From: Syntrophobacterales bacterium
GTDB taxonomy: Bacteria > Desulfobacterota > Syntrophobacteria > BM002
NCBI GenBank assembly: GCA_030613915.1
Contig: JAUWKY010000011.1
Span: 1 to 14,584 of the forward strand
Length of the DNA stretch: 14,584 nucleotides
Direction of reading: 5' to 3'
The notes beneath the pieces were generated by a model. That model ran no database searches. It worked only from the letters and a program-made list of their open reading frames with translations, and had not been told where the DNA came from. The translations under genes were made by a program, and so were the position numbers. Of this stretch, positions 1 to 14,584 are shown piece after piece. Each line of letters starts with the position of its first letter. Positions within the stretch are counted from its first letter, which is position 1.

Positions 1-1
1 A

Positions 2-598
2 GAGACCCTGGGTGAGGCCAGGGAGATGATGAAGAAGGACGTCCCGGTGGGGATGACCAAGGATATCTTCATAGAAATGAAGGTTGAGCAGGCCCTGGTG
101 GAGTCCAATGGCTTCGACCTCATGGTTATGGGTCGACCGGAGGGGCCGGGGTGTTACTGTGCTGCCAATAGCCTGCTGAGTAAGTTCATCGAACGGATGA
201 TGGATAACTACCCCTACCTGGTGGTTGACAATGAGGCAGGGATGGAACATTTCAGCAGGCTTACCACCAAATACATTGATTTGCTTTTGATAGTGAGCGA
301 TTCCAGCCGGCGTGGGATTCTTTCAGCCCGTCGCATTTATGACCTGGTGGATGAGCTTAATATCAGAGTGGGCAGGAAGTACCTTTTGGTTAACCAGTAT
401 CGCGATAAGCTGGAGGGGTTGGTTACTAAAGAGACGGAGACCTTCGGTCCTGACTCCGTGAGCACCATCCCTGAGGATGATCTCATTTACCAGTTTGATC
501 TGGAAGGGAAGCCCACGGTGGAGCTGCCGATCGAGTCTGTGGCACTACAGGCGGCCAACGAGATTTTCAGGAAACTCTTACTTGAGAATGTGGCTTGA
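2..598 (+). CDS. cooC: CooC-like nickel-insertion ATPase (3' part; 5' end outside window)
   Basis: This is the C-terminal part of a MinD/ParA-type P-loop ATPase of the CooC family, which uses ATP to help insert nickel into carbon monoxide dehydrogenase (or CODH/acetyl-CoA synthase). The frame is open from base 2, before the first ATG at 26, so the gene enters from the left and its Walker A region is missing. What is seen: the segment VMGRPEGPGCYCAANSLL contains the family's CxC pair, known in CooC1 as the metal-binding and dimer-interface cysteines. It is followed by YPYLVVDNEAGMEHFSR, a Walker B-like strand, and by LLLIVSDSSRRGILSA and KYLLVNQYRD, typical of the C-terminal half. About 198 codons remain of a usual 250-270. 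A CODH partner is expected upstream but is not visible. Family membership is well supported; the exact client enzyme is inference. Confidence 0.85.
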   Translation, partial: ETLGEAREMMKKDVPVGMTKDIFIEMKVEQALVESNGFDLMVMGRPEGPGCYCAANSLLSKFIERMMDNYPYLVVDNEAGMEHFSRLTTKYIDLLLIVSDSSRRGILSARRIYDLVDELNIRVGRKYLLVNQYRDKLEGLVTKETETFGPDSVSTIPEDDLIYQFDLEGKPTVELPIESVALQAANEIFRKLLLENVA

Positions 599-613
599 GG
601 CGACGTCTGTTGT

Positions 614-669
614 GCGCTGCGGAAACACCAAACCAATCAATCAATTTCTGCTGTAGTACTCCGCAGTGC
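614..669. repeat. Inverted repeat (possible hairpin) after cooC
   Basis: GCGCTGCGGA at about 614-623 pairs with TCCGCAGTGC at 660-669, giving a 10-bp stem with one G-U pair when read as RNA. The loop is long (about 36 nt, AT-rich, containing AATCAATCAAT). It lies 16 nt after the cooC stop codon. There is no U-tract, so it is not a classical intrinsic terminator, although it may stabilise the mRNA 3' end. Confidence 0.4.
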
Positions 670-716
670 CATACAGCCAGAGGTGGTTACACTCTGCTAA
701 TGTTTATAGAAGAGCT

Positions 717-790
717 GTGGGAGCGGCTTTCGAGCCGCGATTCGCTGGTGGTTTAACGAAGAAAAGTCGCGGTTGGAAAGCCGCTCCTAC
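717..790. repeat. REP-like inverted pair (REPIN/BIME-like)
   Basis: Two copies of a roughly 24-nt REP-like unit face each other: one at 717-740 (GTGGGAGCGGCTTTC...) and one at 767-790 that reads GTAGGAGCGGCTTTC... on the minus strand. They share GGAGCGGCTTTC and a CGCGA-type end and are separated by 26 nt, so the RNA can fold into a long hairpin. The G(T)AGGAGCGGCTTT...CCGCGA type is familiar from bacterial REP sequences mobilised by RAYT (TnpA-REP) transposases; no RAYT gene is in the window. The element ends 12 nt before the purH ribosome binding site and contains the out-of-context upstream ATG at 773. Confidence 0.75.
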
Positions 791-814
791 AGTATGCCGC
801 GAAAGGGGAGTTCT

Positions 815-1420
815 ATGTCAAGGAAGATCCAGCGGGCAGTTCTCAGTGTCACGGATAAATCTGGGCTGCTCGAATTTGCTCAAGAGCTAGAGAAGTTCGG
901 GGTGGAGATTCTGTCCACAGGTGGCACCGCCCGCATGATGAGGGAGGGCGGGGTCACTGTGCAGGATGTTTCAGATTTTACCGGTTTCCCCGAAATGCTG
1001 GACGGGCGGGTCAAGACCCTGCATCCCAAGGTGCATGCGGGAATTCTGGCGCAGCGGGACAACCCGGAACATATGAAAACCATGGCTTCCCACCATCTGA
1101 AGGTGATCGATATGGTGGTGGTAAATCTCTATGCTTTTGAGAAGACCGTTGCTCGCGAGGGTTGCACCCTGGAGGAGGCCGTAGAGAATGTAGACATAGG
1201 CGGTCCCACCATGCTGCGCGCTGCTGCGAAAAATTATCGGGATGTGGCCGTGGTGGTGGATCCGGGGGACTATGCTTCCATCATAGAGGAAATGAAGGCC
1301 AATGGAGGTCAACTCAGCCTTGAGACTCGTTTCCGCTTGGCCAAAAAAGTCTTCCGCCTAACACATGAGTACGACGGCGCCATTACTCGCTATTTGGAGG
1401 GAATAGCCTCAGCCCTTTAA
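815..1420 (+). CDS. purH: Stand-alone IMP cyclohydrolase (PurH N-terminal domain)
   Basis: This enzyme closes FAICAR to IMP, the last step of de novo purine synthesis. The 201-residue product covers only the MGS-like cyclohydrolase domain of PurH. The catalytic set known from vertebrate ATIC (K66, Y104, D125, K137) is matched by K67 in [14 protein letters not shown]105 in VVNLYAFE, D126 and K138 in [18 protein letters not shown], so the domain should be active. The AICAR formyltransferase domain (about 300 residues) is absent. The reading frame ends naturally, with a strong terminator 10 nt later, so this is not a frameshift. The start at 815 is chosen because AAAGGGGAG (about 802-810) sits 4 nt before it; the ATG at 773 in the same frame lies inside a REP-like repeat. 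The formyltransferase must be encoded elsewhere (a separate PurH-C-type or PurP-type protein). Confidence 0.93.
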
Positions 1421-1429
1421 CCCAAAAAC

Positions 1430-1471
1430 AATAACCCGGTTGGGAATCACTCCTGCCCCAACCGGGTTATT
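1430..1471. terminator. Bidirectional intrinsic terminator between convergent genes
   Basis: A perfect 15-bp stem (AATAACCCGGTTGGG at 1430-1444 with its complement at 1457-1471) encloses a 12-nt loop. Reading plus, it follows purH by 9 nt and runs into CTATTT. Reading minus, it follows the 1492-2421 gene and is trailed by TGTTTTT (complement of 1423-1429). The A/T-flanked GC stem placed between two convergent genes fits a shared terminator. Confidence 0.9.
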
Positions 1472-1491
1472 CTATTTGAGACTGGGATTAC

Positions 1492-2421
1492 TTAAGTGCG
1501 AAGGAATTTCTGAGTGAGTTTCTCCCATGACAGCTCAGGAACTCTACCGACAACATCATCAATGGCACCACCATCGGCATAGGTCATCCCCACTGAGCTG
1601 ACCATCTCCGCCAGAGCCTGGTGTTCCGTCTGAAGCCATTCGGTGCTTTCTTGGCCGTAGAGGAGAGCCTTCAGGTCTTCTTTCATCTCAGTTGGTTCGA
1701 GAACCATCAACCAGCCCTGGTTATAAGGCTCCTCTTTCACCATGCTAGGATCTTTGGTCGTTTGATAATTGACCGCAGCAACCACCCCCGAGATGGGAGA
1801 GAGCGCTTGAGCCTCCTTGCCCATCCGCTTAAAGGCAAGGCCAACTTCACTAAATTTTACCTCCTCCCCGGTCAGCGGCAGCTCTAGTGAATCCATCTGT
1901 CCGAAAACTTTCACCGAGAAGTCATCCAGTCCAACCCGGATGCGACCACCATGCTCAATCCTGGCCCATGCATGTCCGAGATGGAAGAAATGTCCCTCGG
2001 GCAGTCCATAGCCGTCCACCTGGGGGATGTTGGTTAGCCGAGACGGAATCTGTAACTGCCAACTATCCTCCAGCATTTGGTCGAACTCACACTTGTGGCA
2101 TTCAAACTCATAGGGGCAGAGCCGATAACTAGTCCTGCCGGTGAGCGTGTGGCGACACTCGCGCTGTGCTCCTGGGCGCTTTTTCATTTTTTCCTGCCAG
2201 GAGATGATGTGCGCCTTTTTGCCTGAGGGCTCCAGTCCCTGCCGACCTATTTCCGCATTCTTATCGGCGACCTGCTGCATGGCCTTATCAAAGGGACACG
2301 CAGAACAGTTATAGTAATAGTTACACAATTTGTAGTCGATGACGCCAGCTTCCATCCATATACACTTTTCCTCGCCATTGGGTACGGCCTTGAACCCTGA
2401 CATTTGACTTTTTGCTTTCAT
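1492..2421 (-). CDS. Cys-rich GcvH-like (lipoyl-fold) protein, sigma-54 promoted
   Basis: This 309-residue protein has two parts. Residues 20-45 and 89-114 are tandem copies of C-x12-C-x5-C-x2-C followed by xFD (C20, C33, C39, C42; C89, C102, C108, C111), which look like metal- or Fe-S-binding units. Residues about 135-270 resemble glycine cleavage H protein (a lipoyl carrier): HFFHLGHAWARIEHGGRIRVGLDDF, then LSPISGVVAAVN, then EEPYNQGWL. In ordinary GcvH the lipoylated lysine lies seven residues before the S/A-P of the SPVSG motif; here that position is Gly201, with Lys202 next to it, so lipoylation is uncertain. The length is more than twice that of GcvH. Translation has a strong AAGGAGG 7-8 nt before ATG 2421. 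A consensus sigma-54 promoter lies 71 bp upstream, and the adjacent kinase/NtrC pair suggests the regulator. No other glycine cleavage genes are near. The biochemical role is unknown; a redox or metal-linked adaptor is a guess. Confidence 0.85.
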   Translation of the reverse strand: MKAKSQMSGFKAVPNGEEKCIWMEAGVIDYKLCNYYYNCSACPFDKAMQQVADKNAEIGRQGLEPSGKKAHIISWQEKMKKRPGAQRECRHTLTGRTSYRLCPYEFECHKCEFDQMLEDSWQLQIPSRLTNIPQVDGYGLPEGHFFHLGHAWARIEHGGRIRVGLDDFSVKVFGQMDSLELPLTGEEVKFSEVGLAFKRMGKEAQALSPISGVVAAVNYQTTKDPSMVKEEPYNQGWLMVLEPTEMKEDLKALLYGQESTEWLQTEHQALAEMVSSVGMTYADGGAIDDVVGRVPELSWEKLTQKFLRT

Positions 2422-2491
2422 GGCGAAACCTCCTTCTCAAAAATGAATATTAAATTCTATAAGTGCTTATCTGGGTTTTGTCCTTACTACG

Positions 2492-2507
2492 AGCAAGGAG
2501 CGTGCCA
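2492..2507 (-). promoter_or_regulatory. Sigma-54 (-24/-12) promoter for the GcvH-like gene
   Basis: Read on the minus strand, 2507 to 2492 is TGGCACGCTCCTTGCT, matching the RpoN consensus TGGCAC-N5-TTGCW at every fixed position, with GG and GC correctly spaced. The predicted transcription start is near 2481, giving a 60-nt leader before ATG 2421. Sigma-54 promoters require an NtrC-type activator, and one is encoded at 3334-4680. The match is direct; use in vivo is inferred. Confidence 0.88.
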
Positions 2508-2757
2508 TTCTTGTTTTTGACGGATAAGTTGCTGAACATACTAACAATAAGTCGCAATAGAGGTGAGTGCGATAGCTGCAAGAAATGTAGGATAAATCCA
2601 CACCAAAGATAAATTATTAAGATAACATATTGATATAATTATTAAACTATAATATGAGGTAAAATGCTACAGGGAGTTGCTTTTTGCCACACATGCAGTT
2701 TAGAGGGGGAAGGACAATGGCGGTTGAGACAAGTTACACTTGGTGAGTCTAATGGGG
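2508..2757 (-). promoter_or_regulatory. Candidate enhancer/IHF region upstream of the sigma-54 promoter
   Basis: This 250-bp AT-rich gap contains no convincing gene. Two elements suit a sigma-54 control region. An inverted repeat TCGCA-N11-TGCGA (2552-2572) sits about 70-90 bp upstream of the predicted start. On the minus strand, 2635 to 2623 reads TATCAATATGTTA, which fits the IHF consensus WATCAA-N4-TTR. Because the stretch around 2605-2655 is very AT-rich, the IHF match could be chance. The same gap must also hold whatever 3' end the archaemetzincin operon has; only a 5-bp hairpin (about 2730-2742) without a U-tract is visible there. Confidence 0.35.
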
Positions 2758-3327
2758 CTAGGCCTTCAGAAAGAGGTCGGTGCTAAGATGCCAGAGCATG
2801 AGCTCTCGACAGGCAGTACAGAAGTAGGAGAACTTGCGATCGGCGCACTCCAGTCCAACAGAATACTTCATGACGCAATCGGGATCCACACAATGCCTCA
2901 ATCCGAAGGTGTGGCCCAGCTCGTGAATCGCCTCTTTTTCCAAGCGGCTGATGAGCGGCGGGCAGCCGATTTTGGTTTCGTTCTCTGGATTGCCCCGGAG
3001 TCTATGGCTGGAGATCACCGCACACTTACCTTTGAACTGGGCCTCTCCAAACACAAAAGAAAAGATTGGGTTAAAGAGGTCAGAAGTGGTCACCCCCAGG
3101 ACCTTCAGGGCATCTGGCGCTGCGTTGTCGATCAGTTTCCGCAGAATCAGATTGGAGTTGTACTGCTCTCGATCCGCATCCAGGGCATAGACGGGCAGCC
3201 CCTGATTAGCGGCAATCTTGACTGGCAGGTCAAACTGCTCCTGGATACTTTCTGCGATGATTTCAAGATGTTTATCACCTACATCCCCCAGGGGTATCAG
3301 GTAGATGAATTGGGGGTTATTTTTCAT
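2758..3327 (-). CDS. amzA: Archaemetzincin-family zinc metalloprotease
   Basis: This 189-residue, soluble, signal-less protein belongs to the archaemetzincin (AmzA) family of metzincin peptidases. The diagnostic motif is complete: H135-E-L-G-H139-T-F-G142-L-R-H145-C146-VDPD-C151-V-M153, matching HExxHxxGxxHCx4CxM, followed 16 residues later by CTAC (CxxC). E136 would be the catalytic base, H135/H139/H145 bind the catalytic zinc, and the four cysteines bind a second, structural zinc. The length is typical. The start lies only 6 bp after the response-regulator stop, and no strong Shine-Dalgarno sequence is seen, so translational coupling is likely. Physiological substrates of bacterial archaemetzincins are not known. 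Its position as third gene of a kinase/regulator operon suggests a job in that signalling response, but this is inference. Confidence 0.92.
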   Translation of the reverse strand: MKNNPQFIYLIPLGDVGDKHLEIIAESIQEQFDLPVKIAANQGLPVYALDADREQYNSNLILRKLIDNAAPDALKVLGVTTSDLFNPIFSFVFGEAQFKGKCAVISSHRLRGNPENETKIGCPPLISRLEKEAIHELGHTFGLRHCVDPDCVMKYSVGLECADRKFSYFCTACRELMLWHLSTDLFLKA

Positions 3328-3333
3328 GATAGC

Positions 3334-4680
3334 TTATTGTTGTCTTTTCAGACCGGACTTCTTGATTTTCTTGTGAAGGGTGGTGCGATCTATATTCAAA
3401 AGACGTGCTGTTTTGGTGATGTTCCAATCATTACGTGCAAGCATTTTTTCAATGTGGAGCTTTTCCACATCCTGCAGCGTCTGGAGATCCTCAGTAGGGA
3501 GCAGTTCAACATTACAAAAGGGCAAGTGATTTACCTTCACTTCAGGACCTTGGTCTATCACTGTGGCCCGTTCAATGACGTTTTCCAGTTCACGTACATT
3601 ACCAGGCCAGTGATAATCGATCATCATGTCCATAGCCTTCCGTTCTATGCGGTCGAACTTCTTGTTGAATTCCACATTATACTTGTTCATGAAATGGGCT
3701 GCTAGCAAGGGAATATCGTCTTTGCGTCCCCGTAGGGGCGGAAGGTGGATGCTGACTACATTGAGGCGGTAGTAAAGGTCATTGCGAAAAGACCCCTCGT
3801 CTATAGCTGCGACTAAATCGCGGTTGGTGGCAGTTATCAGGCGGGCATCCACTTCAATGAGGTCAGTCCCTCCGAGGCGACGAAAGCTCTTTTCCTGTAG
3901 AGCCCGCAGGAGTTTGATCTGGGTCTTCATGCTAGTGTCACCCACTTCATCCAGGAAAAGGGTGCCGCCATGGGCCAGCTCAAACCTCCCTTTCTTGGTG
4001 CGATCGGCACCGGTGAAAGCACCCTTTTCATAGCCAAACAATTCGCTCTCCAAGAGGGTCTCGGGAAGGGCGCCACAACTCGTGGCCACGAAGGGACCAT
4101 AGCGCTGGGAACTGTTGCTGTGAATAGCCCGGGCCACCAGTTCTTTGCCAGTGCCGGTTTCCCCGGTAATCAGTACGGTGGCGTTGGTGTCGGTCACGGC
4201 TTTGATCGTTTCGAAGACCTCCTGCATGGCCTCGCTCCGACCAATGATGTCCTCGAACTCATATTGTTCGGTCAAACTCTTTCGAAGCAGGATGTTTTCA
4301 GTGATCAACTGTTGATGCTCGACAATTCTGTTAAGCATCAGGGTGAGCTGATCCACATCGAGAGGTTTGACAACGTAGTCGTAAGCTCCCTCTTGCATAG
4401 CCTGAACCGCTCCGGGGATGGAGGCATAGGCAGTCATCATGATGACCACGGTCTGGGGGGCAATCTCTTGAACCTGCTTCAGCACCTCGATACCGTCCAT
4501 GCCTGGCATCCTTAGATCAAGAATCACAATATCCCAGTTTTCCTCGCGCAAGGAGGCGATAGCCTCTGGACCACCCCCAACTGCCTTGGTAAAATAATTC
4601 TCCTCCTCAAGCCAATTGGTAAGGGCAAGACATACCATTGGCTCATCATCAACCACCAAAATCCGTGCATTTTCTTTCAT
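3334..4680 (-). CDS. NtrC-family sigma-54-dependent response regulator
   Basis: This 448-residue transcription activator has the order receiver, AAA+ and Fis-type HTH. Receiver: acidic pocket D11-D12 and phospho-acceptor D55 in ILDLRMPG. AAA+ domain: Walker A GETGTGKE (173-180), the sigma-54-contacting GAFTGA loop (220-225), Walker B GGTLFLDEVGD and the sensor region ATNRDL. C-terminus: DWNITKTARLLNIDRTTLHKKIKKSGL, a Fis-like helix-turn-helix. All residues needed to activate RNA polymerase-sigma-54 are present. The gene lies 102 bp downstream of the kinase and 6 bp upstream of the archaemetzincin on the same strand, so the kinase is its likely partner. The perfect sigma-54 promoter at 2492-2507 is the nearest plausible target; autoregulation was not visible, because no -24/-12 match was found upstream of the kinase or in the 102-bp gap. 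Confidence 0.95.
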   Translation of the reverse strand: MKENARILVVDDEPMVCLALTNWLEEENYFTKAVGGGPEAIASLREENWDIVILDLRMPGMDGIEVLKQVQEIAPQTVVIMMTAYASIPGAVQAMQEGAYDYVVKPLDVDQLTLMLNRIVEHQQLITENILLRKSLTEQYEFEDIIGRSEAMQEVFETIKAVTDTNATVLITGETGTGKELVARAIHSNSSQRYGPFVATSCGALPETLLESELFGYEKGAFTGADRTKKGRFELAHGGTLFLDEVGDTSMKTQIKLLRALQEKSFRRLGGTDLIEVDARLITATNRDLVAAIDEGSFRNDLYYRLNVVSIHLPPLRGRKDDIPLLAAHFMNKYNVEFNKKFDRIERKAMDMMIDYHWPGNVRELENVIERATVIDQGPEVKVNHLPFCNVELLPTEDLQTLQDVEKLHIEKMLARNDWNITKTARLLNIDRTTLHKKIKKSGLKRQQ

Positions 4681-4782
4681 TGATTCACCCGTCGGTAATG
4701 TGTTGAAATTGGGGGGTTCGTTCTTTCTTTTGCTGCCAACTGCCAGCTGGGCATCGCTCCCTATGCTAGGCGTCTTCCTTTC

Positions 4783-6738
4783 TTATTTATCGAGGGCAGC
4801 AGCCTGGAAGACACCCTCTTCGTCCTTCTGGTCTTCAATGGACAGGGTGCGAGGACCTGCAGGAAACTGAATGGTACAATGAACGCCCTTACTCTCGCTT
4901 TGGATGTAGAGCTCGCCCTCATGCTGGCGGATGATACCATAGGCTACGGAAAGTCCCAGGCCGACGCCTTTGCCCTCGTCTTTGGTAGTAAAGAAGGGCT
5001 CGAAAATCTTCTCCACATCATCTTCCGAGATGCCCACGCCGGTATCACTGATCTTAACCTCGATAATATTCCGCTGCCGGTCAAAATTTGTGGAAACTGT
5101 AAGCACTCCACCTTCTGGCATTGCCTCAATCCCGTTCCAGAGGATGTTAATAAATGCCTGCTGCAAGCGCTTGAAGTCGCATGACAGAAATGGCAGCTCA
5201 GCGGCATAATCGGTATGAATCTTGATCTCGTCCAACTCGGCTCGATGCCGCAGGATATTGAGTGTTGTATCCAGAATTTCATGGATGTCATTGTCTCTAA
5301 TCTCGATTTGACTCTGGCGGGAAAAATCTAATAAGTTTCGAGAAATTGTGGCGCACCGTTCAGTCTCGCTGTGCAAATAGGAGATATAGTCCCGCAACTC
5401 AGCCACTCGATGTACCGGAAAAGGCTCCTGCTGGAGGACGCTGGTCACTAGTTTGCTGAAAGTGAGAACACTCGTCAGAGGATTGTTCATCTCGTGAGCG
5501 ATTTCTGCTGCCAGCCTGCCGATGGAGGCCAGCCTTTGTGATTGCCACAGGGCCTTCTGCCCTTTTTTCCTCTCGGTGATGTCCCGGAGAAAACCGATGG
5601 TAGCTACCTCGCCGTCATGCTGAGATAGGGCAACAGTCTCGTACACTGTGATGGACGCTCCATCTTTGCGGACCATCTTGAATTCATGGCCCTTGGGCAG
5701 AATTTCTCCGCGCTGTCTGAGTCGGTGGCGTTCCATGGAAGCTTGCAGAATATCTGGATGGACAAGGTCAGCTAAACTCTTTTGCAGCAGCTCATCCGGC
5801 TCATAGCCGGTGATCCTGGAAAAAGCCTCGTTCGCGTAGCGAAATTTTGCCTCCGCGCCCTCATGATTCTGCAGGATAAAGATGCCCAGCTCAGCGCTAT
5901 TGGCCGCATCAGTAATGGCCTCCTGCCGGCCTGCGAATTCCTTGATCTCCAGTTGCAGCTTTCTCTTTTCGGTGACATCTTTCAAGTGGGCCAGTTTGCC
6001 GATGGAACCGTCCTGCAGCTTGATGGGAATACATCTTACTTGAAGGGTTCTTCCTGTTTTCGGGAAGCAATATTCCTGAAGACAGCAACCGTCTTCCTGC
6101 TCGATCTGATCCATCGATGACCAGGGACACGGCGTATCTCGTTGAAACAGGGCCTCATAGCACACCTCGCCTATATGGTTACCGATGAGATCAATCAGCG
6201 TCTGGTTCATAAAGACGATCCGGTGGTCTTCTGAAATGACATAAATACCATCGTTGAGACTGTTTGCCCACTCAAAGTTATCATTCTCGAGCTCATGTGC
6301 AAGTTGGCCATATTTCTCGACCGTGATGTCATTCAAGACTCCTTGTACAGATAAGAAGTCACCATTTGCATCGGTAGTGATAAAACCCCTTATCTTTATC
6401 CAGGATAAATCACCAGATTTTTTGACGATTCGGTATTCGGCAAGATAGTATTTATCGGTTTTTAATGCCTGCCTCACTGCATCTCGGGCTATCTCTTCGT
6501 CTTTGTCGTAGACGATGTCCAGCCACTTTACCTTTCTGTCTAGAAAATCTTCCAATTTATAGCCGGTGATGTCTTCTATTTTTCTGTCGTACAAATCCAA
6601 CGACCAATCCCTATATCCCTTAAAATAGATGAGATCTCTGGTGTCGAAGTAGAATTCTTGCGGGGAAATCTTGAAGTTGACCATTTTCTCCAGCTCCCCC
6701 ACCCGGCGCTGGAGCTCTTCGTACGTTGGTTTGGCCAT
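4783..6738 (-). CDS. Cytoplasmic three-PAS sensor histidine kinase
   Basis: This 651-residue kinase presumably phosphorylates the regulator encoded downstream. It has a short N-terminal coiled-coil-like stretch (YEELQRRVGELEKM), three PAS domains (about 30-140, 150-260 and 270-395, the first and third ending in DITVEK/DITERK), a HisKA domain with phospho-acceptor H415 in AAEIAHEMNNPLTS, and a HATPase domain with N-box (ILWNGIEAMPEGG), DTGVGIS, FEPFFTTKDEG and GKGVGLGLS. No membrane segment or signal peptide is seen, so sensing is cytoplasmic. PAS2 carries a cysteine cluster (C193, C204, C218, C219, C224, including CYEALFQRDTPCPW), which could hold a metal or Fe-S centre or act as a thiol switch; this is inference. 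AGAGGA 5-6 nt before ATG 6738 is the ribosome binding site. An extended -10 promoter is seen 45 bp upstream. Confidence 0.94.
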   Translation of the reverse strand: MAKPTYEELQRRVGELEKMVNFKISPQEFYFDTRDLIYFKGYRDWSLDLYDRKIEDITGYKLEDFLDRKVKWLDIVYDKDEEIARDAVRQALKTDKYYLAEYRIVKKSGDLSWIKIRGFITTDANGDFLSVQGVLNDITVEKYGQLAHELENDNFEWANSLNDGIYVISEDHRIVFMNQTLIDLIGNHIGEVCYEALFQRDTPCPWSSMDQIEQEDGCCLQEYCFPKTGRTLQVRCIPIKLQDGSIGKLAHLKDVTEKRKLQLEIKEFAGRQEAITDAANSAELGIFILQNHEGAEAKFRYANEAFSRITGYEPDELLQKSLADLVHPDILQASMERHRLRQRGEILPKGHEFKMVRKDGASITVYETVALSQHDGEVATIGFLRDITERKKGQKALWQSQRLASIGRLAAEIAHEMNNPLTSVLTFSKLVTSVLQQEPFPVHRVAELRDYISYLHSETERCATISRNLLDFSRQSQIEIRDNDIHEILDTTLNILRHRAELDEIKIHTDYAAELPFLSCDFKRLQQAFINILWNGIEAMPEGGVLTVSTNFDRQRNIIEVKISDTGVGISEDDVEKIFEPFFTTKDEGKGVGLGLSVAYGIIRQHEGELYIQSESKGVHCTIQFPAGPRTLSIEDQKDEEGVFQAAALDK

Positions 6739-6782
6739 GGAATTCCTCTATGAGTTTGGGTTTGTCTACACCGAATCCAATT

Positions 6783-6791
6783 ATTATAACA
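6783..6791 (-). promoter_or_regulatory. Extended -10 promoter for the kinase operon
   Basis: On the minus strand 6791 to 6783 reads TGTTATAAT, a perfect extended -10 (TGnTATAAT). No good -35 hexamer is seen 16-18 bp upstream, which is common for extended -10 promoters. The predicted start is near 6776, leaving a leader of about 38 nt. The upstream side abuts the 184-bp palindromic element. Confidence 0.6.
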
Positions 6792-6802
6792 CACTGTTTT
6801 AT

Positions 6803-6986
6803 TAGCCCGGATCTTTCATGAATTGTCGTCGCGAGACCGTGAAGATGGACGTGCCACCGGGCAACCGCAGGGGGTTGGATCCGAGGCGTACTAAAACAGT
6901 ACGTCGCAGGGTCCGACACCCGAGGACGCCCGGAAGGACGCTTATATCCGCGGTCGTAGCAGACAATTCGTGAAATATTCTGGCTA
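6803..6986. mobile_element. 184-bp imperfect palindrome (MITE/fold-back-like element)
   Basis: The ends at 6803-6827 and 6962-6986 are inverted copies matching at 21 of 25 positions (TAGCC...TTTCAyGAATTGTC at each end). The similarity continues inward: GACCG, CCGGGC and GGGxGTxGGA are mirrored, down to a central GTACT-AAAAC-AGTAC loop centred on 6895, exactly midway. The whole segment can therefore fold back on itself. It contains no credible gene. The outermost bases are TA/TA, which would fit a TA target-site element (IS630/Tc1-type MITE), but no clear longer target duplication is seen. A structured RNA or a transcription barrier between the divergent kinase and purD genes is the main alternative. 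Confidence 0.6.
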
Positions 6987-7012
6987 GGTAGTCATAGCGA
7001 TTTTAAACACTA

Positions 7013-7040
7013 TTGCTCTCATAAGGCTGCGATAGAGCAA
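7013..7040. repeat. Small inverted repeat upstream of purD
   Basis: TTGCTCT (7013-7019) and AGAGCAA (7034-7040) form a 7-bp stem with a 14-nt loop. The overlapping CTATTGC and GCGATAG can pair alternatively with one mismatch. It lies upstream of both candidate purD promoters, so an operator is possible, but it resembles no site I can name. The sequence from here to about 7090 shows nothing else. Confidence 0.3.
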
Positions 7041-7129
7041 GCCCACTTTGTCTGATGGACGCAGTGGAGGCAGGGAGGGGACGGATTTTCAATTTGACTC
7101 GTCTTTGCCTTTTTGATACCTTCCAACAG

Positions 7130-7157
7130 TAGTCACAAGGAAAATTCTCTTTATAGT
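7130..7157 (+). promoter_or_regulatory. Candidate sigma-70-type promoter for purD
   Basis: TAGTCA (7130-7135) and TATAGT (7152-7157) are separated by 16 bp and match the -35 and -10 consensus at 4/6 and 5/6 positions. An alternative is TTGACT (7094-7099) with TACCTT (7117-7122), spaced 17 bp. No purine riboswitch core was recognised in the leader. Either promoter would transcribe through the heptamer repeat just before purD. Confidence 0.35.
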
Positions 7158-7193
7158 TGGTCAGTTAGCAGGGAACAGCGCAAAAGATTGAAA

Positions 7194-7221
7194 TTTCGAA
7201 ATTCGAAATTCGAAATTCGAA
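7194..7221. repeat. Heptamer tandem repeat (about four ATTCGAA units)
   Basis: TTTCGAA is followed by three exact ATTCGAA units. Each unit contains the palindrome TTCGAA, so the array can form short hairpins. It ends 9 nt before the purD ribosome binding site and so lies in the 5' untranslated leader. Copy-number variation here could alter leader length, though not the reading frame. Confidence 0.8.
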
Positions 7222-7240
7222 ATCAAAAATGGGGGAGCGC

Positions 7241-8536
7241 ATGAAGGTACTTGTCATCGGCAGTGGTGGGCGCGATCACACTATCGCTTGGAAGTTTTCC
7301 CAGAGTTCCAGGGTGAAGAAAATCTATGTGGCCCACGGGAACGCCGGGATTTCACAGACGGCAGAGTGTGTTAATGCCCGGACCATAGAGGAAATGCTTG
7401 CTTTTGCCGCCCGTGAGAGTATCGACCTTACCTTTGTAGGGCCGGAGAGCCCTCTTTCAGCCGGCATTGTCGATCTCTTTGAGAAGGAAGGGCTGGACAT
7501 AATTGGACCGAGCCAAGCCGCAAGCCGGCTGGAGTCTTCCAAATGCTATGCGAAAGAAATAATGCGTGATCTTGGCATTCCGGTGGCTGATTTCGAGATC
7601 TTTGACGACCCGGATAAGGCCCGGGACTATGTACGCGGCGTGGGATATCCGGTGGTGGTCAAGGCGGACGGCTTGGCGGCAGGTAAAGGCTCTCTGGTTT
7701 GTGATGATGTGGCCCAGGCAGAGGATGCCGTCCACCTGCTCATGGAAAAGAGAATCTTCGGGGACTCGGGTAACAAGGTGGAAATTGAGCGGCGGCTGTA
7801 TGGTCGAGAGCTCTCATTCTTCTGTTTCACAGACGGCAACTCGGTGATGCCCATGGTGGCAGCCCAAGATTACAAGAGGGCTCGGGATAACGACGAGGGC
7901 AAAAACACCGGTGGCATGGGATCCTACTCTCCCCATCCCTGGCTCACCGAAGAGATGAGCCAGACCATAATGGATAGAGTGGTGCAGCCGCTCATTACAG
8001 GCTTCAAAGAAAAGACCGGCATCGTTTACAAGGGCGTTCTCTACGTAGGGCTGATGTTGGTGGAAGAGCAAGATACCATCACTCCTTATGTGCTCGAGAT
8101 TAATATTCGCCAGGGCGACCCCGAGGCCCAGGTTATCTTACCGAGGCTGGAAACCGATCTGGTTGATATATCAGAGGCTATTGTTCAGGGACGACTCCAC
8201 GAAATAACGCCAAAGTGGAACCCAGATTATCGATTGTGTTTGATTGCTGTGAGCGGCCGCACGAAAGGTAAGAAAGGGTGGTACAAGGGATATCCTGAGC
8301 GTTACAAGATTGGCTTGCCCATACACGGGCTGGACGAAGTTGATCCTGAATGCCTGGTGGTTCATTCAGGGACTGGATTCGGCGGCGAGGGTCAGTTGAT
8401 CACCACCGGTGGCCGGGTTTTGTGCGTAGTCAGTCGTGGCAAGACTCTGAGGGAGGCGAGGGAGAAGGCGTACGCGGAGATGGAGAAGGTAGAATTTACA
8501 GGCATGTACTATCGCAGTGATATAGGTGAGGAGTGA
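7241..8536 (+). CDS. purD: Phosphoribosylamine-glycine ligase (GAR synthetase)
   Basis: This ATP-grasp enzyme makes glycinamide ribonucleotide, step two of purine synthesis, in the cytoplasm. The 431-residue length is normal. Seen in order: the N-terminal fold [18 protein letters not shown] (usually GGGREHA), [17 protein letters not shown], the ATP-grasp strand [44 protein letters not shown], and [25 protein letters not shown], the metal- and ATP-binding segment (usually EFNVRFGDPE). It ends with the C-terminal domain [21 protein letters not shown]. Several otherwise rigid positions are conservatively changed, but the catalytic framework is intact. The start at 7241 is preferred because it begins the fold directly and follows GGGGGAG (7231-7237); the in-frame ATG at 7229 overlaps that site. 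The gene is followed immediately by purE, with the purE ribosome binding site inside the purD end. Confidence 0.95.
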
Positions 8537-8541
8537 GCCGG

Positions 8542-9093
8542 ATGCAGCACAGCAAAGAGTCTAATCAGCACCCGGTGAATTCCCAGCAGCATCCCATGGT
8601 CGGTGTAGTTATGGGAAGTGACTCTGATTTGCCGGTAATGCAAGAAGCTCTGGAGGTACTAACAAGTTTCGGAATTCCTGCCGAGATCACGGTGGCGTCA
8701 GCGCACCGCTCACCAAAAAGGGTGTATGAGTATGCAAGTTCTGCCAGTAAACGGGGTCTCAAAGTACTGATAGCAGGTGCTGGTGGAGCTGCCCATTTGG
8801 CTGGTGTCCTGGCGGCTGAAACCGCGCTGCCGGTAATCGGTGTGCCCATAGCCTCTTCTCCTTTGGCGGGGTGGGATGCACTTCTAGCCACCGTACAGAT
8901 GCCGGCGGGTGTGCCGGTGGCCACCATGGCTGTGGGTAAAGCCGGAGCCAGAAACGCAGCCATTCTGGCGGCACAAATACTGGCAGTGGCCGACAGCGAG
9001 TTGGAGAAGCGACTTGAGCGCTACAAGGAAGAGTTGGCTGAGCAGGTGGCCGAGAGAGCTGCAGGACTGCACGAGAAGTTGTCCACTCCGTAA
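8542..9093 (+). CDS. purE: N5-carboxyaminoimidazole ribonucleotide mutase (class I PurE)
   Basis: PurE moves the carboxyl group of N5-CAIR to give CAIR in purine synthesis, and the class I enzyme works as an octamer. The 183-residue product has [14 protein letters not shown] (phosphate and substrate loop, about residues 20-33), VASAHRSP with the catalytic H55 and class I Arg56, [27 protein letters not shown], and the long loop [31 protein letters not shown]. About 18 N-terminal residues precede the fold. The start at 8542 is preferred: GAGGAG (8528-8533) is 8 nt upstream. An in-frame GTG at 8533 would overlap that site and the purD stop. The gene is translationally linked to purD. A class I enzyme normally needs PurK, which is not in this window. 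Confidence 0.95.
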
Positions 9094-9113
9094 TCAAGGC
9101 AAACCAGGAATCG

Positions 9114-9181
9114 AACCACGAAGGACACAAAGAGCACAAAGTTAGTAACTTGCCTTTGTGCCCTTTGTGATCTTTGTGGTT
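9114..9181. repeat. Imperfect inverted repeat between purE and the tsaC-type gene
   Basis: AACCACGAAGGACACAAAG... (from 9114) and ...CTTTGTGATCTTTGTGGTT (to 9181) are near-complements around a central AAGTTA-G-TAACTT dyad (9139-9151). The arms are also internally repetitive (GGACACAAAG, GAGCACAAAG). ACCACGAAGGACAC-type repeats occur widely between genes in many bacterial genomes. It can fold into a long hairpin but has no U-tract, so termination is uncertain. Confidence 0.7.
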
Positions 9182-9199
9182 TAGGTATTGATTGTTAAG

Positions 9200-9844
9200 A
9201 TGCCACTCATACTCAAAGTGGAGAAAGATCCTTCCCGAAGCGAAGAAGCCATAAGGCGAGCCGCCCAGCTCATTGTCAACGGCGGGGTGGTAGCTTTTCC
9301 GACGGAAACCTTCTATGGTCTGGCTGCCCTGGCCACTGACTATCAAGCCATTGATAAGCTGTATCAGCTTAAGAAAAGGCCGGCTCAAAAATCCCTCAGT
9401 ATTCTGATTGCGGATCCAGCGGAACTTGATGACTGGATTGAAACCATCCCCAATCAGGCGCTTCATTTGACGGCACGCTTTTGGCCTGGTCCCCTCACCC
9501 TTGTCTTTGATGCCGCAACACACCTGCCAACCAATCTCACCGCTGACACCGGCAAAATAGGTGTAAGGATTTCCTCTCATCCGGTTGCTCAGGCTCTGGT
9601 CCGAGAGGTAGGTGAACCCATCACAGCCACCAGCGCCAATCGGTCAAAATCCCCTAGTTGTCGCAGTGCGGGTGAAGTAATAACCCAACTGGGTTTGGAC
9701 CTGGAGGCCATTCTAGATGCTGGCTTGACGCCCGGGGGCAAAGTCTCTACAATTGCCGACGTAACTACTCGTCCTCCCAAGATTTTACGAATCGGGGCAA
9801 TTGCCGCCCAGGAGATTTTTTCTTGCTGGGAGCAAGATGCATAG
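9200..9844 (+). CDS. tsaC: L-threonylcarbamoyladenylate synthase (Sua5/YrdC/YciO family)
   Basis: This enzyme uses threonine, bicarbonate and ATP to make threonylcarbamoyl-AMP, the precursor of t6A37 in ANN-decoding tRNAs. The 214-residue product is a single YrdC domain. What is seen: VVAFPTETFYGLAAL (34-44, PTET-YGL signature), the basic motif LKKRPAQKSLSILI (KKRP 58-61), FWPGPLTLVF, GVRISSHPVAQALV and the nucleotide-site segment PITATSANRS. There is no C-terminal Sua5 extension, so it is of the short TsaC type. YciO-like paralogues share these motifs, so the symbol is provisional. ATG 9200 and an in-frame TTG at 9188 are both possible; neither has a strong Shine-Dalgarno (TTAGG at 9181-9185 favours a start somewhere here). 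It lies 106 bp after purE and 112 bp before the murJ-murG fusion on the same strand. Confidence 0.88.
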   Translation: MPLILKVEKDPSRSEEAIRRAAQLIVNGGVVAFPTETFYGLAALATDYQAIDKLYQLKKRPAQKSLSILIADPAELDDWIETIPNQALHLTARFWPGPLTLVFDAATHLPTNLTADTGKIGVRISSHPVAQALVREVGEPITATSANRSKSPSCRSAGEVITQLGLDLEAILDAGLTPGGKVSTIADVTTRPPKILRIGAIAAQEIFSCWEQDA

Positions 9845-9956
9845 GTGCCGTGTTGCCTATGACCACAGAAGCCTCTCTGCTACATCCCTGCGCCCCAAAT
9901 AGCTCACGGCCCCATGCGCACCCAGTCTTGGAGCGAGTCAGGGACGCGGGAGCCTC

Positions 9957-12900
9957 ATGAGGAAATCCTTTTTTAGAAAATTTTTCGATATGGTGCAAGG
10001 AAACCTTGTCTCCCGAATGTTTGGGTTCATAAGGGAGATGGTTATTGCCGGTTATTTCGGCACCACTCGAGCCACTGACCTCTTCGCCATAGCCTTTACC
10101 ATCCCCACCCTTTTCCGGCGGATTCTGGGAGAGGACATGGTGGAAAAGGCTTTCTTACCCACCTTCCGCCAACTGATCGCCGCCGGGGAGTATAGGCGGG
10201 CCTGGATCCTGGCCTCAAGGATTTTTAACCTCATGATGCTTCTGCTATTGATCATCATGGGGCTCTTTTATTTCCTGACACCGAATCTGGTCAGGGTAAT
10301 CGGGGCTGGCCTCGCTGCCAGCGAGTTTCACCAGGCCGAGGTCATGACCTATTTTATCCTTCCTTTCATGGTTGCCATTGGTCTGGCCTCCTTTGTGGGT
10401 GGACTCCTGCTTTTCCTGGACGCTACTGTCACCTATGCCCTGGCGCCGATAATGCTCAGTATCGGGGTCATTATCGGTATCATTGCTCTAAAACCCTATC
10501 TTGGCATGTATAGCATGGCAGTGGGTTTTGTCCTGGGGGGAGTTCTCCAGTTTCTCATCCAGATTCCTGCTCTCATTAGGGCCTCGCGGCACAGCGACTT
10601 GAGAATGCGTTATTCGGTAACATCAGGTGAACCTTGGCGGGAACACAAAGAAGTGGGGCGGCAGTCAGGTTGGATCTTCGGGCAGTCCGTGGCCAGCAAG
10701 ACCGTGGAGGTGGTAGATCGGGTGCTTGCTTCCTTTCTCGTGCCCGGCAGTATCGCTGCTCTCTATTTTGCCCAGAGGCTTGTCCAGTTGCCCAACTCCA
10801 TTATTGGCCTCGCCGTGGGAAGGGCGGGGGTCACCGAGCTCAATGATCAAGTGCAACAGGAAGATTGGCAGGGGTTCCGCAATACGGTGATTACCGGAGT
10901 TCGCTACAATATCGTCTGCATGGTGCCCCTCACCGTGCTGGTGGTGGTACTGGTGGGACCCATAACTTCGGTGGCTTTTCAGCGTGGAGCCTTTGACAGT
11001 TCGGCGGTGAAGCTCACGGCTTTAGCCTTTGCTTTCTACGCTTTGGGCCTTTTGGGTATGGGGCTGTGGAATCTCTACAGCCGCGTTTATCCAGCATTGG
11101 CCAAGAATCAGATCCCCCTCTACTCCTCGCTGCTTTGCGCTTTTGTGAATGTGGGGCTGAGTCTGCTTTTGGTGCGGACGCCAATCAAACATGGAGGGCT
11201 AGCACTCGCCTCTTCCATCGCCTTTACCCTAAACGGTGTGCTACTGTTCGCTGCTTTTAATTTTGAACTACGTCGCTTGGGGCAGAAGGGTATTGGCTGG
11301 CAGGATCTTGGCGACACGCTTCTTTCCACCACTGTTGCCAGTGGCGTGGGTGGCTTGACCGCCTGGATTCTGTTTCCTCGATTCAGCGAAATCCATTTGC
11401 TGGCCCGCCTGCCGCATCTGATTTTTCATTGGGGCGAGGTTGTCGCCCTGGGGCTTGCGGCTGCTGCTGGCATGTTCATGTTTTTGCTGACCCTCGGCTA
11501 TTGGGGCCGATTTCGGGGCGGGGGTGCAGCCGGGCCAGAACGGGTCATTTTGACAGGAGGTGGTACCGGTGGCCACGTGAACCCGGCTCTTGCCATAGCC
11601 GAGGCTATCAAACAGAAGGAGCCACATTCCCAATTTCTCTATGTGGGCTTACGGGGAAAAGCCGAATCGGTTATCGTTACCCGTGCCGGCTATCCTATTC
11701 GATACGTGTTGGCCAGTGGCTATCCCGGTTCTCAACCGAGTCTGGCCCTGGTGCGTTTTGTTTGTGCCTTATTCGTGGGAATCATGCAGTCTTTTTATCG
11801 TATTGCCACCTTTCGACCCGGCACGATTGTGGGTACGGGAGGGTATGTTAGCGCTCCGGTCATATTTGCCAATACCTTGATGCGCGGCCTTGGCATGAGT
11901 CGGGCTCGGGTCTTTATCCACGAGCAGAACAGCGTGCCGGGAAAGCTCAATCAGTTAATAGGTCGCCGGGCTGACAAAGTGTTGCTCACCTTCCCGGAGA
12001 CCAAGGGATTTTTTCCAGAAAATGGAGTGGTGGTAGGCTATCCGGTACGGCATTCGGTCACCAGCATGCTAAGCTCGGACAGAGGCAAGGCCATGCCGTT
12101 GCCAATACCTGAGGGCAGACGAGTGGTTTTCGCTTTTGGTGGTTCCCAGGGGTCTCGGACCATCAATCGGGCTTTGGTGGACGCGCTGGCCTACCTACGA
12201 CCGCGGCGGAATGACATTTTTGTCATTCACGGTGTGGGGTTGATGAAAGCTTCAGAATACCACGCCTGGGAGGATACCTCTGAGCGGTTGCAACGTGAGT
12301 ACAATGAGCAAGAGCGAGAGCAAATCGATTCTTTCTACTACGCCCAGGACTATTTTCATAACATTGGTGACATCTACGCAGTGAGCGATCTTATAGTATG
12401 TCGCGGCGGTGCTGGGAGTCTCAATGAGATCTCGGCAATGGGAAAGTCGGCTCTCATTATTCCCAAGGCCAATTTACCAGGCAACCACCAGGTAATGAAT
12501 GCTCGTGCCATGAAACGGGCTGGTGGAGCTGAAGTGATCTTCGAAGATACTGTTAAGGACGGGGGGATGCTGTTGGAGGAGGTTGAAGGTCAGAAGCTGG
12601 CAATGAAGATTCTTTCTTTGCTCGATGCCAAGCAGCGGTTGGAAGAGATGGGTAAATGTTCTCGCGCCTTCATGAATCACTATGCTGCAGAGCGTATTGC
12701 TGCGGAGATTCACGGCAGCCCACTGCCCAGCAGCTCCCTGAATGATATTTCTGCTAAAGATCTGGATCCACTTTTGAGCGATAATGAGCTGTTGTGGCGG
12801 CTCAGAAGTGCTTGGCAAGAGGATCAGAAACAATATGAGCCTCGAAAAGTTATTGTCGATGCTGACGATTTGGATTACTACCTCCATCGAGCTGCATCCT

Positions 12901-13556
12901 TGTTAACCTCGCCCAGTTGGCCGGAACGCAATCTGGGAGTCAAGCTCATAGGGCTCCTCAAACATGAAGAGAAACTCTCTTCACTGCTTCATCTCTTGGC
13001 GGATCGGACTCCCGCAAGTCGATTGCAGAAGTTTTTTGGAGGTGATTATCGGCAGGTCGGCTTCATCCGGCGCAACGCTCTGATCTCTTTGCAGATTTTG
13101 AATAAGTGGGGGCCAGAGGTGGAAGCCCGGGTTTTCGAGGCCCTGGGCGATGGTTACTATGAAGTTCGGGCCCAAGCTGCCCGTACCATGGGCCATTGTG
13201 CTGAAGAGCTTCTCCAGAGGCAGGCTGTGACCGAAAAACTCCTGTCGCTTATCAATGATAGATCGTTTGAGGTGGTGCGGGAGGTTGCTTTAGCGCTGGG
13301 CGCAGTGGGCGGTAATCGAGAGGTGGCAAAGGGTTTACTGGGATTGAAGGAGCACCATTACTGGCAGGTTCGCGAGGCTGCCCTCAGGGCTGTCACCATG
13401 CTAGTAGAAAGGGAAATCGTTACTGACCGAGATTGGCTACTCAAAGAGACTTCACGCTTTATTCTTACAACCACGGATTTTCGCTCCTATTTTGACATTA
13501 AGGAGACGTATCGCAAGCTTCACGCCCTTTGCAAAGGAGATGAAGAGGAAAATTAG
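9957..13556 (+). CDS. MurJ-MurG-HEAT fusion: lipid II flippase plus lipid II synthase
   Basis: One 1199-residue frame carries three modules. (a) Residues 1-516: MurJ/MviN lipid II flippase, with about 14 hydrophobic helices and conserved charged positions R20 and R26 (SRMFGFIRE) and R54/R55 (IPTLFRRI). (b) Residues 529-920: MurG, which adds GlcNAc to lipid I. It has GGGTGGH (534-540), HEQNSVPGKLN, FGGSQGSRTIN, CRGGAGSLNE and NHQVMNA, i.e. the donor and acceptor motifs. An extra acidic stretch near EDTSERLQREYNEQERE looks inserted. (c) About 975-1199: HEAT-like helical repeats (VRAQAARTMG, VVREVALALGAVGG, VREAALRAV). Only about 12 residues separate TM14 from MurG, and no in-frame start codon with a Shine-Dalgarno lies there, so separate translation is unlikely. 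A 14-helix MurJ leaves the C-terminus in the cytoplasm, where MurG works. GGGAG 4 nt before ATG 9957 supports the start. mraY follows 39 bp downstream. Confidence 0.93.
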   Translation: MRKSFFRKFFDMVQGNLVSRMFGFIREMVIAGYFGTTRATDLFAIAFTIPTLFRRILGEDMVEKAFLPTFRQLIAAGEYRRAWILASRIFNLMMLLLLIIMGLFYFLTPNLVRVIGAGLAASEFHQAEVMTYFILPFMVAIGLASFVGGLLLFLDATVTYALAPIMLSIGVIIGIIALKPYLGMYSMAVGFVLGGVLQFLIQIPALIRASRHSDLRMRYSVTSGEPWREHKEVGRQSGWIFGQSVASKTVEVVDRVLASFLVPGSIAALYFAQRLVQLPNSIIGLAVGRAGVTELNDQVQQEDWQGFRNTVITGVRYNIVCMVPLTVLVVVLVGPITSVAFQRGAFDSSAVKLTALAFAFYALGLLGMGLWNLYSRVYPALAKNQIPLYSSLLCAFVNVGLSLLLVRTPIKHGGLALASSIAFTLNGVLLFAAFNFELRRLGQKGIGWQDLGDTLLSTTVASGVGGLTAWILFPRFSEIHLLARLPHLIFHWGEVVALGLAAAAGMFMFLLTLGYWGRFRGGGAAGPERVILTGGGTGGHVNPALAIAEAIKQKEPHSQFLYVGLRGKAESVIVTRAGYPIRYVLASGYPGSQPSLALVRFVCALFVGIMQSFYRIATFRPGTIVGTGGYVSAPVIFANTLMRGLGMSRARVFIHEQNSVPGKLNQLIGRRADKVLLTFPETKGFFPENGVVVGYPVRHSVTSMLSSDRGKAMPLPIPEGRRVVFAFGGSQGSRTINRALVDALAYLRPRRNDIFVIHGVGLMKASEYHAWEDTSERLQREYNEQEREQIDSFYYAQDYFHNIGDIYAVSDLIVCRGGAGSLNEISAMGKSALIIPKANLPGNHQVMNARAMKRAGGAEVIFEDTVKDGGMLLEEVEGQKLAMKILSLLDAKQRLEEMGKCSRAFMNHYAAERIAAEIHGSPLPSSSLNDISAKDLDPLLSDNELLWRLRSAWQEDQKQYEPRKVIVDADDLDYYLHRAASLLTSPSWPERNLGVKLIGLLKHEEKLSSLLHLLADRTPASRLQKFFGGDYRQVGFIRRNALISLQILNKWGPEVEARVFEALGDGYYEVRAQAARTMGHCAEELLQRQAVTEKLLSLINDRSFEVVREVALALGAVGGNREVAKGLLGLKEHHYWQVREAALRAVTMLVEREIVTDRDWLLKETSRFILTTTDFRSYFDIKETYRKLHALCKGDEEEN

Positions 13557-13595
13557 CAGCGCACATAGCTAAGCAGGAACATACAAGGAAAAACG

Positions 13596-14584
13596 ATGAT
13601 TTATCACATTGGTCGCTGGATTCAGAGCCAGGCTGATGCCTTTGGATTTCTCCGGCTGCTGAATTACTTGAGCTTCCGATCTATCATGGCAGCATTGACC
13701 GCCGTGCTGATCGTATTTCTCCTGAGTCCGCGCTTCATCCGGGCGATGCACCGGAGGAACTTCCTGGATCGGGTGAGGGAAACCGGCATTGACTCAGCCT
13801 TTGACAAGGCTGGTACACCCACCTTGGGTGGGGTGTTGCTGATTGTGGCTATGACAGTTTCCATATTGCTCTGGTGCAATCTGGCCAATCCCTTTTTGCT
13901 CCTGAGTCTCGCCGCCCTCCTTTGGTTCGGTGGTATTGGTTTTTGGGATGACTGGCTGAAGAGTTCCCGCGGCAGCGGTGACAAGGGCCTGGGAGAGATA
14001 ACGAAACTTGTACTGCAGGGATTGTTTGCTTTGGCTTTTATCGCGGTCTATGTGGGACCATTTTCTCCGGTGGAGCCCGGGACTGCCACCCAGCTGTACG
14101 TACCTTTCTTGAAGAGACCTTTATTGGATCTGGGGATTTTCTATGGGTTTTTTATCTTTCTCTTCATGTTGCTGGTTGCCAATGCTGTAAACATCACCGA
14201 CGGTTTGGACGGCTTGGCCATCACTCCGTCAATCTTTGTGGCTGGGGTATTGGCGGTGTTTGCTTATGTCATGGGCAACACGATATATGCGGGCTATCTG
14301 CAATATCCTTATCTGCGGGGAGTCGGTGAGTTGACTGTTTTTGTCTCTTCCTTTATCGGGGCAGGTTTGGGTTTTCTCTGGTATAATGCTTATCCGGCCC
14401 AGATATTTATGGGTGATACAGGATCTCTCGCCATTGGTGGGATGCTGGCGGTTCTAAGCGTCCTGCTCAAGCAGGAATTGCTTTTTCCCCTGCTTGGAGG
14501 CCTTTTTCTGGTTGAGGCACTGACCTCGCAAATACAGGATAAAATCGGGGTGCGCTGGCTGGGAAGGAGAATCTTCTACAGGGC
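13596..14584 (+). CDS. mraY: Phospho-MurNAc-pentapeptide transferase MraY (3' end outside window)
   Basis: MraY links UDP-MurNAc-pentapeptide to undecaprenyl phosphate, making lipid I in the inner membrane. The open frame runs to the window end with 329 residues of about 360. What is seen: DKAGTPTLGGVLL (usually K-GTPTMGG), FWDDWLK with the magnesium-site DD pair, NAVNITDGLDGLA, and PAQIFMGDTGSLAIGGMLA, separated by hydrophobic helices. The frame ends in LTSQIQDKIGVRWLGRRIFYR, where MraY normally continues into the PLHHHFE histidine motif just beyond the edge. AAGGA 6 nt before ATG 13596 is the ribosome binding site. It is 39 bp after the fusion gene with no terminator between, so the two are probably co-transcribed. 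MraY and its neighbour together cover lipid I formation, lipid II formation and flipping. Confidence 0.95.
   Translation, partial: MIYHIGRWIQSQADAFGFLRLLNYLSFRSIMAALTAVLIVFLLSPRFIRAMHRRNFLDRVRETGIDSAFDKAGTPTLGGVLLIVAMTVSILLWCNLANPFLLLSLAALLWFGGIGFWDDWLKSSRGSGDKGLGEITKLVLQGLFALAFIAVYVGPFSPVEPGTATQLYVPFLKRPLLDLGIFYGFFIFLFMLLVANAVNITDGLDGLAITPSIFVAGVLAVFAYVMGNTIYAGYLQYPYLRGVGELTVFVSSFIGAGLGFLWYNAYPAQIFMGDTGSLAIGGMLAVLSVLLKQELLFPLLGGLFLVEALTSQIQDKIGVRWLGRRIFYR

Follow-up and report, generated by a model that had tools for sequence, protein, structure and literature searches.

The 14,584-nucleotide stretch of Syntrophobacterales DNA analysed here (contig JAUWKY010000011.1 of assembly GCA_030613915.1, positions 1 to 14,584; hereafter the window) contains, at 9957-13556 on the forward strand, a single uninterrupted ATG-initiated frame of 1199 codons (1199 amino acids) in which a short linker joins a complete MurJ-type flippase to a complete MurG-type glycosyltransferase, with a tail of HEAT repeats behind the latter. 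Pfam searches of the fused protein matched MurJ at residues 30-466 (E 7.9e-80), Glyco_transf_28 at 530-676 (1.8e-25), Glyco_tran_28_C at 723-905 (3.2e-23) and HEAT_2 at 1060-1145 (3.9e-11). Together with the NCBIfam searches described below these confirm the proposal of an initial annotation, made from the letters alone, that two complete modules are joined in one polypeptide. The parts of the gene and its neighbours are as follows.

9957-11507, forward strand: MurJ module, approximately residues 1-517, with the last helix modelled at 492-520
11508-11537, forward strand: linker, approximately residues 518-527, with a predicted local distance difference test score (pLDDT) below 50 at 521-525
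11538-12716, forward strand: MurG module, residues 528-920, in which a helix near 596-619 is strongly hydrophobic
12780-13553, forward strand: C-terminal helical domain with HEAT repeats, approximately residues 942-1199, with PF13646 at 1060-1145 and also PF02985, modelled as almost all helical
13596-14584, forward strand: mraY, truncated by the contig end (329 codons), over the cut-off of TIGR00445, closest solved structure 8g01 (E 9.7e-73)
7229-9844, forward strand: purD, purE and sua5 (by Pfam), the upstream neighbours and the common anchor of the locus in relatives

In the predicted structure the last MurJ helix ends at residue 520 and the first MurG strand begins at 529, in agreement with the linker of about 12 residues described previously. 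A 1:1 ratio of MurJ to MurG, which had also been claimed, is a consequence of there being one frame, provided that the protein is not cleaved post-translationally. Such a cut, giving separate MurJ and MurG-HEAT proteins, is highly improbable; the linker is modelled with low confidence and could be cleavable, but it is short, and no start codon within the frame looked convincing as the origin of a free MurG. The in-frame ATG codons fall within the last MurJ helix, and none has a convincing ribosome site (by eye), and a GTG behind an AGGAGG stretch would, as a start, delete the G-loop. The mraY gene starts 39 nt past the stop of the fusion gene, and a scan for promoters and terminators gave nothing informative. 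The HEAT domain, the adjoining mraY, a dcw cluster without mraY and murG and a set of single-helix MurG-HEAT relatives had been missed by the initial annotation.

Distribution and origin of the fusion

The 55 available genomes of the class were all searched with a 301-residue query. In the family to which the window belongs (f1) there were matches in 12 of 12 genomes and the whole frame was present in ten. In the other two the gene looks to have been split by assembly: in G008 each piece abuts a contig end and 123 bases are common to the two at 99%, while in G005 the first piece is followed by 100 N, the second lies far away and the two share 224 bases at 91%. The G005 loci (L042 and L044) belong to a chromosome record, CP070843, which contains runs of exactly 100 N and in which the fusion gene is divided between distant places. 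Runs of this exact length, which is usual for a scaffold gap, are present in the loci of the single-contig records G002, G005 and G009, which were therefore not treated as finished. A second family, f4, has the whole-frame fusion in two of its three genomes, the third (G018, 68% complete) giving no match. The one genome of f2 gave no match to the query either; there, purD-purE-sua5-MurJ (to residue 406) leaves one contig and HEAT-mraY opens another, an arrangement that is consistent with, although not proof of, a fusion split over two contigs. In f3, f5 and f6, 37 of 39 genomes were matched and two were not, and every frame is of only 710-895 amino acids and is therefore without the MurJ module.

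Searches of a protein collection returned 48 clusters at at least 54% identity, 47 of which combine Pfam domains of MurJ and MurG in a single chain; the next-best proteins, at 24-36% identity, contain MurJ. No further independent MurJ-MurG fusion was seen among the matches listed (the best 120 of 972 in the third search), although each of these searches scored only about 8,000 candidates, with an alignment query giving the identical 59 proteins, and other fusions are possible. Other multidomain proteins with MurJ were noted (P0050, P0052, P0058 and P0053), with PF04932, which we take to be O-antigen ligase-like, and in one case, named CsaB, with several glycosyltransferase-type Pfam entries. 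A set of 14 loci, 13 of them whole or part fusions, comes from metagenome-assembled genomes (MAGs) labelled Desulfobacterota, Syntrophobacterales, Desulfobacteraceae or Deltaproteobacteria.

The MAG of which the window is one contig is fragmented (79% complete, 351 contigs), which might raise the suspicion of an error of assembly or frame. At 54-95% identity, however, the same frame is open in further genomes and assemblies, so that the fusion is not unique to one assembly, and an artefact can be rejected with near certainty. The view that this is a non-standard architecture is supported.

The surroundings of the gene are shared with its unfused relatives. At f1-type fusion loci purE-sua5 lies directly upstream in ten of ten compared; at the unfused MurG-HEAT loci of f3, f5 and f6, mraY lies downstream in 27 of 27 genomes, with sua5 just upstream in 26 and purE in 24, the last count being affected by short flanks in some loci (the f3 locus L048 was checked by Pfam). 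Neither purE nor sua5 was found within 1.5 kb upstream of the two f4 fusions. Elsewhere in the window, 773-1420 holds a PurH-like frame of 215 amino acids, with an MGS domain but, of the 311 positions of the AICARFT/IMPCHase domain, just the first 58, and a frame of similar length that looks alike at its start occurs in L048; between this frame and two-component genes, 1492-3327 on the reverse strand encodes a GCV_H-domain protein and a member of peptidase family M54.

In place of MurJ, the unfused MurG-HEAT proteins of f3, f5 and f6 have a single hydrophobic helix just ahead of MurG in 27 of 27 genomes (best 19-residue mean 1.68-3.51); no such helix was seen in f7 and f10, represented by one row each. 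The fused proteins form one clade with support 100/100 in two trees, making up 9 of the 37 rows of the MurG-HEAT tree and 19 of the 58 rows of the MurJ tree, some of the latter being near-duplicates; the long branches of the MurJ tree give the fused MurJ no firm rooting among MurJs. The simplest reading is that MurJ was joined once, replacing the single-helix anchor of a MurG-HEAT protein. The reverse, in which the helix is what is left of a MurJ, is less likely, since f3 has the helix too.

The MurG module

Both GT28 Pfam domains of the MurG module are over their gathering scores (90 and 83 bits versus 26.2 and 22), the motifs GGTGGHV, HEQN and GGSQG and the glutamate of the CR-G stretch align with E. 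coli MurG, and the MurG fold is matched. The helix near 596-619 is more hydrophobic (best 19-residue mean 1.84) than in the MurG of E. coli (0.62) or P. aeruginosa (1.09). The same helix averages 1.79 in 28 single-helix rows (some loci counted twice), so that a tight contact of MurG with the membrane probably predates the fusion.

It had been suggested as an alternative that the fused gene is a paralogue of a canonical murG elsewhere. This is not borne out. With the NCBIfam murG model (TIGR01133) each f1 or f4 genome having any strong match has just one (in two pieces in G005 and G008), the rest being partial and below 45 bits, and there is accordingly no second strong match in the window's own genome, at its 79% completeness, or in the others of f1 and f4. 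Nor is a murG present in the dcw cluster in four of four genomes examined. In G002 and G006 the cluster is continuous and free of N, with the Pfam order Mur ligase-murD-ftsW-Mur ligase (murE, murF and murC being assigned by gene order), and there is no space for mraY ahead of murD or for murG after ftsW; G000 and G009 have the same gene spacing, again without mraY or murG, the G009 stretch containing two runs of N. Both genes are thus located outside the dcw cluster. As the only strong MurG match, the module would be expected to transfer N-acetylglucosamine (GlcNAc) to lipid I.

The MurJ module and standalone copies

With the NCBIfam model murJ_mviN (TIGR01695) the MurJ module scores 282.9 bits over residues 5-511, above the equivalog cut-off of 235.55, and the MurJ fold is matched across nearly its whole length. 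In MurJ, R24-D25-R255/R270 are reported to form a putative substrate-binding triad, in which R24 and R270 are essential cavity arginines, and E57-R352/K368 a thin gate (PMC6465408). The residues aligned to R18, R24, D39, R52, R53, E57 and R270 are conserved in 19 of 19 fused rows. The ratio of non-synonymous to synonymous substitution (dN/dS) in seven comparisons is 0.06-0.15 for the MurJ half, the values being rough in the four of the seven pairs in which MurJ dS is above 1, against 0.05-0.16 for MurG and 0.06-0.47 for the HEAT part (six pairs, the seventh not being computable). By these substitution rates, purifying selection acts on the MurJ half. Lipid II transport by the fused MurJ is likely.

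Besides the fused gene, TIGR01695 detected a standalone murJ in G000-G005, G007, G008 and G010, that of G007 being cut by a contig end and that of G005 having an in-frame TAG. Of the second murG and second murJ whose existence the initial annotation had raised, then, no second strong murG match was found, while a second murJ is present in the window's own genome among others. With the same model the fused copy was the only MurJ found in G006, G009, G011, G014 and G016, and G012 gave only a piece before a contig end. In G002, G004 and G010 the standalone gene is next to rpsT or no more than about 2 kb away from it (rpsT being identified by TIGR00029 in G002 and G010 and by eye in G004). The corresponding neighbourhood of G006, with leuS, lptE, a thioesterase (by Pfam) and rpsT, is continuous and without N, and murJ is absent from its usual slot. 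The rpsT neighbourhoods of G014 and G016 also lack murJ but are organised differently, and absence is weak for G009 and G011 because rpsT was not found there. The alternative flippase Amj was found in none of eight genomes searched. The standalone copies have dN/dS values of 0.11-0.31 (five pairs). In the fusion-free families f3, f5 and f6 the standalone MurJ-like rows (L071-L095, L100 and L101) are of an unusual type, with R52/R53 or E57 in none of 27 and N-Y and G at these columns in 21.

It might be supposed that the MurJ half flips some other lipid-linked glycan and that MurG is a mere neighbour. This is very unlikely: the partner is the genome's only strong MurG match and is adjoined by mraY, no transporter family other than those of MurJ is matched over cut-off, the cavity arginines are conserved, and no other MurJ was found in G006 or in the two f4 genomes that bear the fusion.

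A putative synthase-flippase and its relation to known systems

On the sequence evidence the protein is one frame of complete modules with a conserved architecture, under purifying selection, containing the only strong MurG match and, in some genomes, the only MurJ found. From this we infer, with a probability of roughly 0.7, that the fusion is a bifunctional lipid II synthase-flippase, to which the activity of both modules, a hand-off between them and a role for the HEAT tail would belong. MraY, encoded next door, would make lipid I. The MurG module, which the last MurJ helix and a hydrophobic face would hold at the inner surface of the membrane, would add GlcNAc, and the adjoining MurJ module would accept the resulting lipid II in its arginine-lined inward cavity and move it outward. 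The HEAT tail would probably serve as a docking surface for other cell-wall proteins. In vitro, lipid II is reported to be bound more tightly by E. coli MurJ than by MurG or MraY, and MurJ took all of the lipid II made in a coupled reaction (PMC9046198). Tethering would raise the local concentration for capture of lipid II by MurJ, and substrate channelling between the modules, as originally proposed, is plausible. That the single chain passes its product directly to its own transporter, so naturally tying MurJ to what MurG makes, and that it has allowed the ordinary murJ to be lost in some lineages, has about even chances; loss in some lineages is suggested by the empty slot in G006, the in-frame stop in G005 and the failure to find a standalone copy in the two fusion-bearing f4 genomes.

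A number of observations weigh against the synthase-flippase. The MurG module, at 211.9 bits over residues 528-918, is under the curated TIGR01133 cut-off of 250.25, the threshold of a single model; since it is, and since that cut-off is exceeded in only one of 59 searched genomes and in nine of 14 control genomes, the module is described as MurG-type and divergent. The predicted structure of the fusion has a predicted template modelling score (pTM) of 0.56, too low to fix the orientation of MurG with respect to the MurJ cavity. In the MurJ module E replaces D25 in 19 of 19 fused rows, the R18 column is K in P0018 (one of 17 rows of alignment A2), and the column of gate residue K368 holds N in 15, G in two, S in one and A in one of the 19. 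An invariant Arg376 lies four residues beyond this column, and the gate residues K368 of E. coli and R352 of MurJ-TA are placed one helical turn apart in PMC6465408. Four of the seven dN/dS ratios for MurJ are rough, as noted, and the fused MurJ sits on a long stem in the MurJ tree. Every fused relative with an organism name is a MAG, and the absences therefore rest on incomplete genomes. Seven f1 genomes (G000-G004, G008 and G010), the window's own included, keep an uninterrupted second murJ. Finally, P0062 and P0063 (70% identity in MurG) have an in-frame loss of most of the MurJ interior that spares little more than the first and last helices; the reduction may be genuine rather than an assembly artefact because P0063 is recorded on 13 contigs.

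Several of these points would suit a MurJ half that is mainly a membrane anchor or scaffold for MurG, with flipping by the standalone MurJ or another protein: the retained second copies, the little that P0062 and P0063 keep, the changed gate column and, in addition, the single hydrophobic helix that occupies the same place in all 27 unfused MurG-HEAT rows of f3, f5 and f6. One helix would suffice as an anchor, however, yet a full MurJ has been kept with conserved cavity arginines and the low dN/dS given above; no other MurJ was found in five genomes; and in the G000-G002 pair it is the standalone copy that evolves faster (dN 0.202 versus 0.090 for the fused MurJ). As a general explanation the anchor is therefore unlikely, although the MurJ half may be merely that in lineages with a standalone murJ or a reduced MurJ interior.

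The fusion bears on a question that was still disputed as of 2025, the identity of the lipid II flippase. A conserved, selected fusion of the only strong MurG to MurJ is evolutionary evidence, of an independent kind, for action of MurJ on the MurG product, and offers a single-chain object for structural and transport studies. No published account of a MurJ-MurG fusion was found among the titles and abstract openings listed by searches of open-licence papers.

The fused protein shares with MurJ, the lipid II flippase of the MOP superfamily, a fold of nearly full length, an equivalog-level NCBIfam score, the cavity arginines and E57, and differs in the attached MurG-HEAT, in E for D25 and in a gate column that is not K or R but is followed four residues on by an invariant Arg. 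With MurG, the GT28 lipid II synthase, it has in common both Pfam GT28 domains, the motifs and the fold, whereas its score is under the equivalog cut-off and it has a HEAT tail and is tethered by MurJ. The unfused MurG-HEAT proteins of f3, f5 and f6 have the same MurG and HEAT modules, with mraY after them in 27 of 27 and sua5 before them in 26 of 27, but one N-terminal helix where the fusion has MurJ. A parallel in organisation is with MprF, the aminoacyl-phospholipid synthase-flippase, in which a lipid-making enzyme and its flippase are likewise in one chain, although the substrate is another. The domains of MprF are not known to be related to MurJ and MurG. MurE-MurF and MurB-MurC are soluble enzyme-enzyme fusions with no transporter. 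MurE-MurF of Bordetella (PMC6420597) and MurB-MurC of Verrucomicrobium (PMC4803751) resemble the present case in that two proteins of peptidoglycan-precursor metabolism are in one chain.
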